Assembly (NCBI GenBank): GCA_029582155.1
Contig: CM055897.1
Span: forward strand, 10,220,482-10,284,481
DNA from: Panopea generosa
Lineage: Eukaryota > Mollusca > Bivalvia > Adapedonta > Hiatellidae
Reading direction: 5' to 3'
DNA: 64,000 bases
Position numbers and translations under genes: made by a program. Positions 13,041 through 19,000 of the stretch are shown one piece after another. Within the stretch, counting starts at the first letter, position 1, and the number at the start of each line of letters is the position of its first letter. Under the pieces are notes generated by a model. The model was given only the letters and a program-made list of their open reading frames with translations, ran no database searches and was not told where the DNA came from.

Positions 13041-16000
13041 TTAAGCTCCGGTATACAAGGAAAAAAAGTATATGTACAGCAGGAACACTGGGTACATCAA
13101 TAATGGCCGTTTCTCTTGGAGTTCTTGAACACATAATAACGATCCAGCGCTGAAAGCAGCCCATATAACACCAAGTAACTGAAACATATTATATACAAGT
13201 AAGCCTTAATAAGTTATCGCATCTCCATAGATATGGGTATGATGGCATACTTACAATCTGGTATAAACTGTGTAAACTTTCCTCTAAAATGATTAAATGG
13301 GGGAATGGTATTGTGTGTAGTGTAATTAGGAACAGAAATTCTATATGGCAACCAGAGTTACAGGGGAATACTTCAGAATGAATCCAGTGTCAAACTGTCT
13401 AAGCTTGACTTAATCCAGAGCTGTGACTTTGAATTCTCGCCTGGCAACAGTCTTCAGAGATGGACGTGCTTGAGTACTGGTTAACCTTCCAGGATCCCAG
13501 GAAAGAGTAGTTAAGTTAATTGATAGTTTGTTAGCCCTTGATGGCATAAAAGTGACAGTAATGTAAGGACCAAGCCTGGTTCAAACCCAGGAAATCAGCG
13601 GTACAAGAACTAAGCCTGGTTCAAACCCATGACATTGGTGCAACGTTAGCCTGGTTCAAAAATGACATAGTGGTGCAAGGACCAAGTCTGGTTCAAACCC
13701 ATGACAGTGGTGCGAGGACTAACCCTTGTTCAAACAAATGATATTAGTAGTGCAAGGTTAGCCTGGTTCAAACATGACATCATTGGTGCAAAGTCCAGGC
13801 CTGGTTCAAACCCATGATATCAGTAGTGTGAGAATCAAGTCCGATTTAAACCCAGGACATAAAGGGAGTGAGGCAAGCCTGATTCAAACTCGTGAAATCA
13901 GTGACAAGTACAAAGTCTGGTTCAAACCCATGACAGTGGTGTGAGGATCAACCTTAGTTCAAACCCATAAAATCAGTGGTTTAGAACACCTGATCACCAA
14001 AGACCCTAGTTTAAATGAAGATTGTATGCACAACACACTTTTAATAATCAAAGTACATTATTTTATGTTCTTTTCATAAATTATCTCCTACACAGTAAAA
14101 TACTCTGATACAAATCACTAGTGTCTACATTCCTACATTCTCTTTGACTTGGTCCTGCCATAAAAAAGTAAATCGGTGGTAGTTTAATGCAAAGTCAAGG
14201 TCAAAATGTTTTTTTTAATTTTCAAAATTTAACTAAAATCTAAGGCAAGTCATGGAATGGATCATATAAAACATTCGTTACCACTGAAATGTTCAATCAA
14301 TCAGTTTAAAGTTGCAATTATTTCTTAATTACTGTCTAGTAGGAATGTATCAATGTATTCGGTTTTTTATGAAGCCAACAGGAAGGAAAATTTCAGACTA
14401 CACTTCTACATACAAAAACAAACTGATTTACAGTTTGGAGTGAAAAACATGCCAACAAATGAGTATGCAGCCAAAACCTAGAACCTTGATACCAGTACTT
14501 ATACCGGCGCCTCTTATGACTGGTATGAGCTACAATGGTCATTACTCATTTTCATGCTGAAACAACATAGGGTTTTATTAAATGGATATGACATTCATTT
14601 GACAAATTCCTATACCTGTGACAGTGATCCTGTCAGAACCACACAGGTTTAATTTAATAGGAAAATAAGTCCCAATCATTCACTGACCGAATGCCCCATC
14701 CACTTAAAATATAACTACAGCATGGATCATTTATTAGACAAAATTTATTTTATTTTTATCATGTATTGTACACTTGCATAAAAGCCTTACCTTGAACAAA
14801 TGGCTGACATAATGAAAGGCTTTAAATAATGGCAATATCAACGCAGTAAGAACAAGCGGCAACACTGAGTACCCGATCACACCGAGACACTGGGAGTAGC
14901 TGACCTGCAGATGCAAACAAAATATATGTGTTATTTCGTTGATAGAATGATTCATATTTCTATACCCCGAGTACCCAATCACACCGAGAGACTGGGAGTA
15001 GCTGACCTGCAGATACAAACAAAATATGTGTTATTTCAATGTTAGAATGATTCATATTTCTATACCCTGAGTACCCAATCACACCGAGACACTGGGAGTA
15101 GCTGACCTGCAGATACAAACAAAATATATGAGTTATTTCATTGTTAGAATAATTCATATTTCTATACCCTGAGTACCCAATCACACCGAGACACTGGGAG
15201 TAGCTGACCTGCAGATACAAACAAAATATATGTGTTATTTCATTGTTAGAATGATTCATATTTCTATACTCTGAGTACCCAATCACACCGACACTCGAAG
15301 TAGCTGACCTGCAGATACAAACAAAATATATGTGTTATTTCAATGTTAGAATGATTCATATTTCTATACCCCGAGTACCAAATCACACCGAGACACTGGG
15401 AGTAGCTGACCTGCAGATACAAACAAAATATATGTGTTATTTCATTGTTAGAATGATTCATATTTCTATACCCTGAGTACCCAATCACACCGAGACACTG
15501 GGAGTAGCTGACCTGCAGATACAAACAAAATATATGTGTTATTTCATTGTTAGAATGATTCATATTTCTATACCCTGAGTACCCAATCACACCGAGACAC
15601 TGGGAGTAGCTGACCTGCAGATACAAACAAAATATGTGTTATTTCAATGTTAGAATGATTCATATTTCTATACCCTGAGTACCCAATCACACCAAGACAC
15701 TGGGAGTAGCTGACCTGCAGATACAAACAAAATATATGTGTTATTTCATTGTAAGAATGATTCATATTTCTATACCCTGAGTACCCAATCACACCGAGAC
15801 ACTCGAAGTAGCTGACCTGCAGATACAAACAAAATATATGTGTTATTTCAATGTTAGAATGATTCATATTTCTATACCCCGAGTACCCAATCACACCGAG
15901 ACACTGGGAGTAGCTGACCTGCAGATACAAACAAAATATATGTGTTATTTCATTGTTAGAATGATTCATATTTCTATACCCTGAGTACCCAATCACACCG

Positions 16001-19000
16001 AGAGACTGGGAGTAGCTGACCTGCAGATTCAAACAAAATATGTGTTATTTCAATGTTAGAATGATTCATATTTCTATACCCTGAGTACCCAATCACACCA
16101 AGACACTGGGAGTAGCTGACCTGCAGATACAAACAAAATATATGTGTTATTTCAATGTTAGAATGATTCATATTTCTATACCCTGAGTACCCAGACACTG
16201 GGAGTAGCTGACCTGCAGATACAAATAAAATGTATGTGTTATTTCATTGTTAGAATGATTCATATTTCTATACCCTGAGTACCCAATCACACCGAGACAC
16301 TGGGAGTAGCTGACCTGCAGATACAAACAAAATATGGGTGTTATAGTATTTATTGTTATAATAATTCATACTGTAGTTCATAACAAATCTACAAATATTT
16401 GTTTTAATATAAATACGTGTATGATTCACTGATCGGACAGATGAATTTATTAAAGATTCAAAACATTAATCAAGGCTTTTATTCTTTAAATTATGGATAC
16501 AAATTGTCATAACTTTTTCTTTTTCCAGATAATAACTTATAAAACTTTAAGTCTGAATAGTTTGTTTTTTATATTTTCATTTAATTCACGTAATTCACTG
16601 TGCAGGAGTGTAATATTTGAACCTAGTGTACTATCACTTCCTATTCATTGCTCTGTGTTTTCCGTATAACACAGTTCATGTATGTACAATGTTGAACAAT
16701 TTTATGACTATATTGAAGTTATTTTGAGAAGTTACATCATACGATGACTCATGGAAACTAATATGTCTGATTTTATTTGTTCCTTATGTAGGTGATCTGT
16801 TAAATTAATGGTTAATATTAAACTTTTACAAAACATCTTTTAATACTTTTGTAAACATTACAGGCCATACAGTTTCATTCTATACATACCTCTCCTCCAA
16901 GTGCCCTGGCCAACATAAATACAATAAATGAGCCACATGTCCAGATGGTGAGTATCCAAGACACAACCTTAAACAAATCAGACAGACAACATTATTCCAC
17001 ATAAAATACACTGTTATATAACTATATTCACATACCTGGTACATGAATTTACAATTTTAAAAGTCAACGATTTATAAAATTATCCATAGAAGACCTGTAT
17101 TAACTCTTATAATACACTTACGCAATGTACAAATTTTATCACACAATTTACGGTGCAGGAGTGTAATAAACCTACTACATATTTCTGATATAAACCTAGT
17201 GTAATATCACTTTCAATTTATCGCTCAGTATTTTCTGTATAACTCAGCTGTCGTACGTAAATTGCCAAAGTACTTTCCGACTTGCCCGAATATAGAAATA
17301 ACGTCATTTTATTATGGTTTAATGACGTTATTTGAGACCTTACTTCATATGATGACTCACGAAAACATATATGCCCAATTTTTTTATCGTTTCTTATAGA
17401 GAAGATCTGTAAACCTTTCTAAATTGTTTTTAAACAAATCTTACATTTTTACCCATTTGTTATTGAATTTATCGAACTTGTTGGAAAAAAATTATATAAT
17501 GCTCGACAGAGCCTCGCATAATATATGTTTTTCAACTCGTTTAATAAATTTAATAATAAATAAGCACTCATGTAAGATCCTCTATACACTTTGTTCAATC
17601 AAAGGCAAAAGTTCCCCATGTGTACCCATGTTACATAATGTGAATCTCAAGAATCTCAAGAAAGGGACATCAGATTATAATCATGCAGCTGATAACATGG
17701 CCGGGTGATAGCGTGAAATACGCAAAAATTGGTAGTTCATGTGTTCAAGTGTCCTTGGATGAGAGATTTTAGCTTATTGGTATTAGCGCAGTTCTAGTTC
17801 CACCTAGGAGGATACAAACCATGTTAAAATGTATTTCACTATTTCCTTAAATATGATTAACAATTAGAGATGGTGAAACAATAATGACATGCATGTGTAC
17901 ACATTTGATACTTACCCTGAACTGTCCATACAAGGAGACAAGAGAGTAGAGCAGAATGACAACAAGAGGTCCCCAGAAGTCTGGGTTCTCCCTCACAACA
18001 TGTCTATTAAAGCCTAGTTGTGGAAGAGGGAAGAGAACACAACGGAGCTTGTAGTAGATATCTTTCAGATCTATGTCCAACTCTTCCCTGCATAAAAGGA
18101 AAAATATACTGTATGCATGTATAGAAATAGTTAACATGTTCACTGACTTTACAATAAAGCAAGAGCTGTCAGAAGATGGGTTTGATTGACTTAAGACAAG
18201 TTATTGGCTTTTTTCACAATGGACTGTGACCTGGAGGAGATAAAAGAGTTGGAGTAGTTAATAAGAAATATCAGCTTGCCATTATGATTAAACTTACAAA
18301 AAATGTAATATATGAAGAAGGGCGATAATTTTGTATCAATTAAAAGGAGAGTTTTACTGCCCATCTCTATGACATCATAAACCCCCACCCAATGAATGGT
18401 AGGAGATACTGATGTATAATGCAGGAGGAAGTACAATGGATTCCCATTTTCTTCCAAAAGGTGTGCTAGCTAATCATATCTAAAGAAGATAATCAAATCT
18501 AAATTACATGTAGCTCTGAGATGCTCACAGATACCAGACAATCTTACTTAAAATCCCCATTAGCGGCAATAATGTTCTCATAAATTTTATCTTTCATTTA
18601 CTGTATAAGTAATTTACAAAAGTTTTAGCCATATTAGAGCTATTTCAGGAAATCAAGGATGGCAATTGTTAGACAGAGGGTGACATAGAATGGTTAATGC
18701 CATTTCAAACACATTTCAGATCATATATGGCATATCCAGTTTTATTGGTGGAGGAAGACCTCAGAATGATTCTGAGTAGAACCACCGGCAAACTGGTAAA
18801 CTTTCTCACACAAAGTTTTTGGAATGAGCGGGATTCAAACTTATGACCTTAGTGGTGAGAGGTAAGTGATATTGAGACAGCGTCATAGACCACTCCGCCA
18901 CGGAGGACCATTTGGTGACATAGAAGACCTCAACAGAAATATCTGAGGAATGATGAATATAAGAATCTTACATTCAAATATAAGAATCCTTACATTTATG

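Follow-up and report, generated by a model that had tools for sequence, protein, structure and literature searches.

How does a gene select the last of fifteen nearly identical splice acceptors? The question is raised by a 64,000-nt stretch of Panopea generosa DNA (the window), in which a minisatellite repeats an intron-exon boundary. Most work on how the spliceosome decides between equal acceptors has relied on engineered duplicates. Boundary arrays are a rare kind of DNA repeat, and they provide a natural test of the choice between near-identical splice sites. A preliminary description of the locus had proposed 15 tandem copies within YIPF4, with the intron 4/exon 5 boundary itself as the repeated unit, and both points are confirmed here. 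On its minus strand the array contains 15 CTGCAG motifs, each directly followed by GTCAGC, and Tandem Repeats Finder reports positions 14865-16344 with a period of 102, 14.7 copies and 93% matches. Copy 15 is the authentic start of the 114-nt exon 5 at 14904, and 14 decoys lie upstream of it in the transcript. The features of the locus are as follows (exons from the six-exon gene model; exon 5 also from site scoring).

13041..13178, minus strand: exon 6, including the stop codon
14791..14904, minus strand: true exon 5, 114 nt, phase 0, with donor AAG|GTAAGG at 14790
14865..16344, minus strand: minisatellite with a 102-bp unit (61 nt of intron end plus 41 nt of exon start) and 15 acceptors
14905..14955, minus strand: stretch upstream of the true acceptor, with CTATC in place of the decoys' CTAAC (12 of 14) or CTTAC (1)
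14905..15006, minus strand: decoy 14, nearest exon 5, the sole decoy that is open and in frame (216-nt exon, 34 additional residues)
15007..16314, minus strand: decoys 1 to 13, each meeting a stop before exon 5 ends
16315..16375, minus strand: intron stretch upstream of the first copy, unit-like but diverged, left edge of the array
16890..16967, minus strand: exon 4, with donor GAG|GTATGT at 16889
17916..18087, minus strand: exon 3
19782..19944, minus strand: exon 2
26200..26368, minus strand: exon 1, from the ATG

The minus-strand gene model of six exons contains 277 codons up to the stop, and its reading frame is intact. The product matches the Pfam family Yip1 (E 1.3e-12), and we take the host gene to be YIPF4. 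Intron 4 measures 1985 nt and intron 5 measures 1612 nt. A protein search of the genome (1.47 Gb, 39 contigs; 8 of 8 candidates scored) with this product yielded six exon matches, all belonging to the gene itself, which leads us to reject the idea that this gene is freed by a second copy. Since the gene is intact and was matched only at this locus, a functional mRNA needs the acceptor at 14904 (or that at 15006). The best match to a solved structure of a relative was to a designed protein with an E value of 0.27, which is not meaningful.

The exon-like parts of copies 1-8 start at 16314, 16212, 16120, 16020, 15918, 15816, 15714 and 15614, and those of copies 9-15 at 15512, 15410, 15308, 15208, 15106, 15006 and 14904. 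The spacing is 102 nt in nine of the 14 intervals, 100 in four and 92 in one. When the last decoy joined to exon 5 was used to search the genome at the DNA level, with very common words skipped, the unit gave 15 matches, all at this locus, so that a dispersed satellite or mobile element is rejected as the source. Copies 5 and 10 differ in a single aligned column, and copies 4, 8 and 14 in two. The edge copies 1 and 15 are more divergent than the inner ones, the pattern of diverged edges and concerted evolution inside, in a distance table where copies 2, 3, 11 and 12 are cut or unevenly aligned and their distances therefore inflated. Such multi-unit relations among the copies would be typical of unequal exchange.

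The preliminary description knew of no comparable case, a statement that no longer holds. Minisatellites at intron-exon boundaries are a kind already described as amphioxus "mirages", in the globin genes BflGb6 (acceptor side) and BflGb9 (donor side) and in Adh3, with a two-copy case in potato. According to the parts of the amphioxus report considered here (PMC3087553), mirages are tandem, minisatellite-like duplications of an intron-exon boundary whose edge copies are less homogenised, and they do not disturb regular splicing; boundary minisatellites have also been proposed as a source of new introns. The present array agrees with this picture, its units spanning an intron-exon boundary and its last copy being the authentic boundary that it adjoins. 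AG/GT occurs in many mirage units, and here a ratchet-like AG|GT stands in each copy. The BflGb6 unit measures 150-160 bp, comparable to the mostly 102-bp unit here. Unlike BflGb6 with its 3 or 6 copies, our array carries 14 extra copies; its host gene is a different one, and the animal is apparently a protostome. A query with the Ubx homeodomain and tail matched two places of the genome, through query position 69 or 70, at 86% and 84%, which we take to be Lox2/Lox4-like genes of a lophotrochozoan. Together with the L088 series described below, the array suggests that boundary minisatellites, known from amphioxus, are also present in an animal lineage far removed from it. The potato case, a duplication at intron 1/exon 2 of RdRp, likewise comprises branch site, pyrimidine tract, acceptor and exon start, as far as PMC4974935 was consulted, but in two copies instead of 15. 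Splicing outcomes were read by RT-PCR in amphioxus, and a new intron was demonstrated by RNA-seq in potato, whereas our array is known from DNA alone.

Similar repeats are present elsewhere in the same genome. Three families with 151 matches in total supplied the 79 loci that we surveyed (Cpn60_TCP1, 30 of 47; ABC_tran, 19 of 19; Mito_carr, 30 of 85). Several of these loci share one open frame, so that they represent fewer than 79 distinct exons. Direct repeats including the edge of the match were found at two of the 79 loci, L057 and L088, and exon 5 of YIPF4, the positive control (L013), was recovered. At L057:1600-1811, 106 bp are present in two copies (98%), duplicating the last 27 nt of an ABC-transporter exon together with its donor AAAG|GTGAGC. 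At L088 (G000:C1:5428882-5430961), the acceptor TTGACTACTTCCTCTGTACAG|GTGC is repeated before a mitochondrial-carrier exon in units of mostly 54 bp, and a search with the unit gave 33 matches including the true one, all within C1:5429011-5430961. One genome thus holds two natural long acceptor series, of 15 (YIPF4) and about 33 (L088) members, which junction counts can read out. Arrays with a period of at least 15 make up 22,950 of the 254,643 bases across the 79 loci, and in so array-rich a genome boundary arrays are expected now and then. Two further loci, L031 and L047, carry long minisatellites (units of 183 bp and 44 bp, respectively) whose near end lies about 20 nt into the intron beside the exon. 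Both begin inside the intron without containing the splice site, and were rejected as boundary-overlapping arrays.

The near-identity of the acceptors, another claim of the preliminary description, is borne out by their scores, which were obtained, as were all donor scores below, with matrices not trained on Panopea generosa. The true acceptor scores 10.65. Of the 14 decoys, copy 4 alone (9.07) falls below this value; the other 13 equal or exceed it, in one case by 0.01. Nothing in the acceptor itself therefore marks the last copy. A YTNAY branch-point motif (CTAAC in 12, CTTAC in one) is located 35-37 nt before the intron end in 13 of the 14 decoys, with no AG between motif and acceptor, and is absent within 50 nt of decoy 1 and of the true acceptor. 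Taken together, these two counts make the choice of the last copy a real question, as had been supposed: the true acceptor is neither the best-scoring site nor one that bears the motif. RNA structure that would hide the decoys was also considered and gave no sign. The fold z-scores are +0.96 and -0.58 for two units and -0.03 for exon 5, and a three-unit stretch is less stable than its shuffles (z = +2.06).

The donor side of the decoys is less uniform than had been supposed. A single sequence after each exon-like part had been described; CAGGGTATAG is indeed found in 10 of the 14 decoys, but three carry CGGGGTATAG and one CAGAGTATAG. Similarly, the pseudo-exon of 41 nt up to the downstream GT, thought to be common to all, applies to 12 of the 14 decoys, while one measures 31 nt and one 39 nt. 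The donor at +41 is weak as proposed (scores of 2.7 in ten decoys, 1.9 in three and -0.46 in one), yet every copy also holds a stronger donor-like site, CAG|GTCAGC, whose GT immediately follows the acceptor and which scores 6.94. Exon 5's own donor scores 11.26 on the same scale, within a range of 4.63 to 11.26 for the donors of the host gene.

From these data, we consider it likely that the array is a neutral minisatellite of the mirage kind, with the decoys left in the intron and the exon 5 donor fixing the choice. What we infer, beyond the observed array, gene, scores and reading frames, is that the array is neutral, how it expanded and which acceptor is chosen. Without a function of its own, it would have arisen when a segment across the intron 4/exon 5 boundary of the Yip1-family gene was duplicated in tandem, and would then have expanded and been partly homogenised through unequal exchange. 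The regular splicing reported for amphioxus mirages and the other boundary arrays of this genome agree with this reading. The decoys would remain intronic and splicing would end on the last copy, presumably chosen in the main as the sole copy with a strong donor at normal exon length (AAG|GTAAGG, 114 nt), the decoys having just the weak donor at about +41. Splicing on the last copy is suggested by this difference in donor score, 11.26 versus 1.9 to 2.7 (once -0.46). As far as PMC9225289 was drawn on, long introns are handled by exon definition with exons under about 500 nt, and cross-exon choice of splice sites is supported where the flanking introns are long; introns 4 and 5 lie within the long-intron range of that study. 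Against the neutral reading, however, 3' splice sites in that study show an overall preference for the upstream site, which long/long intron contexts only reduce, and upstream use here would lead to a stop in 13 of the 14 decoys. The missing branch-point motif at the true acceptor and the lack of a folding sign of hidden decoys speak in the same direction.

The upstream-site bias leaves room for a model in which upstream choices are made and then undone, a reading that we regard as unlikely but worth weighing. A decoy would be spliced first, the junction would recreate a donor, and the decoy would be removed onto a later copy by recursive splicing. Since each decoy begins AG|GTCAGC, the junction between exon 4 and a decoy recreates the donor GAG|GTCAGC, which scores 6.02 and, like CAG|GTCAGC, exceeds every decoy donor at +41. 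Donor competition would thus favour the junction donor in the decoys, while in exon 5 the exon's own donor would win, and only exon 5 would stay. AG|GT with fair scores is present in 15 of 15 copies; of 410 AG|GT sites across the window, 20 reach an acceptor score of at least 9 and a donor score of at least 6.5, cut-offs chosen after the array scores were known, and 15 of these 20 are the array, against 1.95 expected per 64 kb from a Markov model. In the portions of PMC8605326 used here, fly ratchet points show a short cryptic exon, a stronger ratchet donor and donor competition. The decoys resemble such recursive splice sites in presenting an acceptor and at once a donor, with a short out-of-frame cryptic exon and a weaker donor behind it. 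Those sites are described, however, as single, conserved and located in long introns, and nascent ratchets too are described in long introns, whereas here 15 near-identical copies, seen in DNA only, are found in an intron of about 2 kb. Moreover, GTCAGC matches poorly at +3 and +6, and the GT need not reflect selection, since it opens the Val codon with which the exon starts. At L088, 20 of 22 junction donors score only 3.6 to 4.1 (the other two 6.69), which argues against a ratchet at boundary arrays in general. Because the junction donors are fair in one series and mostly not in the other, YIPF4 and L088 together can test the idea.

Carried to its full length, the same idea would make the array a serial recursive-splicing ladder, which seems to us rather improbable. 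Wrong splicing to any of the 14 decoys would recreate a donor and be undone. An AG|GT boundary could then undergo repeated duplication at no harm to the gene, and the true exon would be picked out by donor strength and nothing else. If so, boundary minisatellites should be best tolerated where the exon starts with GT.

That the acceptor at 15006 is used part of the time, giving a minor in-frame isoform with 34 residues added between exon 4 and the exon 5 sequence, appears doubtful. This acceptor scores 11.36 versus 10.65 for the true one, has a CTAAC 35 nt upstream and opens a 216-nt in-frame exon; when each acceptor is read through exon 5, only 14904 (114 nt) and 15006 are open and in frame, and the other 13 hit stops. 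On the other hand, chance alone leaves the intron-derived part open in about 12% of shuffles (11.7% of 20,000 trials with the intron part of the unit). The insert would, in addition, duplicate part of a conserved stretch of this membrane protein, probably with harmful effect. The consensus unit, too, has 34 codons without a stop when read in the frame of exon 5. Five of the 14 unit lengths (92 and 100) are not multiples of three and break the frame, and the variable sites in the exon part are spread over the codon positions as 2, 2 and 3 (13 copies), which together give no sign of coding constraint. A translated tandem-repeat protein was rejected on account of the frame breaks, the stops met by decoys 1-13 and the share of shuffles that are open too.

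It is distinctly unlikely that the copy number acts as a dial, with decoy use leading to premature stops and decay so that gene output is tuned by an array that varies between individuals. The stops before the end of exon 5 in 13 of the 14 decoys would suit such a role, as would the 6 and 3 units by which amphioxus boundary arrays differ between haplotypes, but in the same sections of PMC3087553, RT-PCR suggests normal splicing.

An assembly artefact is most improbable: although some homeobox and carrier matches are paired at constant offsets and may be retained haplotype copies, the array copies differ by substitutions and indels, the gene and array match a single place in the genome with unique gene sequence on both flanks, and L088 carries a similar array.

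The paired homeobox and carrier matches lie at C1 20.25-22.15 Mb, C12 41.23-41.76 Mb and C12 32.66-33.68 Mb, with near-constant offsets of about 1.261-1.264 Mb, 0.517 Mb and 0.917-0.920 Mb, and reflect either duplicated segments of the genome or haplotype copies that the assembly has retained. Within the window, about 8% of the sequence (5,170 bases) is in arrays with a period of at least 15; further minisatellites are located at 13565-13818, 25319-25704, 40366-41640, 42149-42436, 44882-45295 and 63093-63498, together with a perfect CA run of 44 units (12650-12737) and a perfect C run of 34 (29780-29813).
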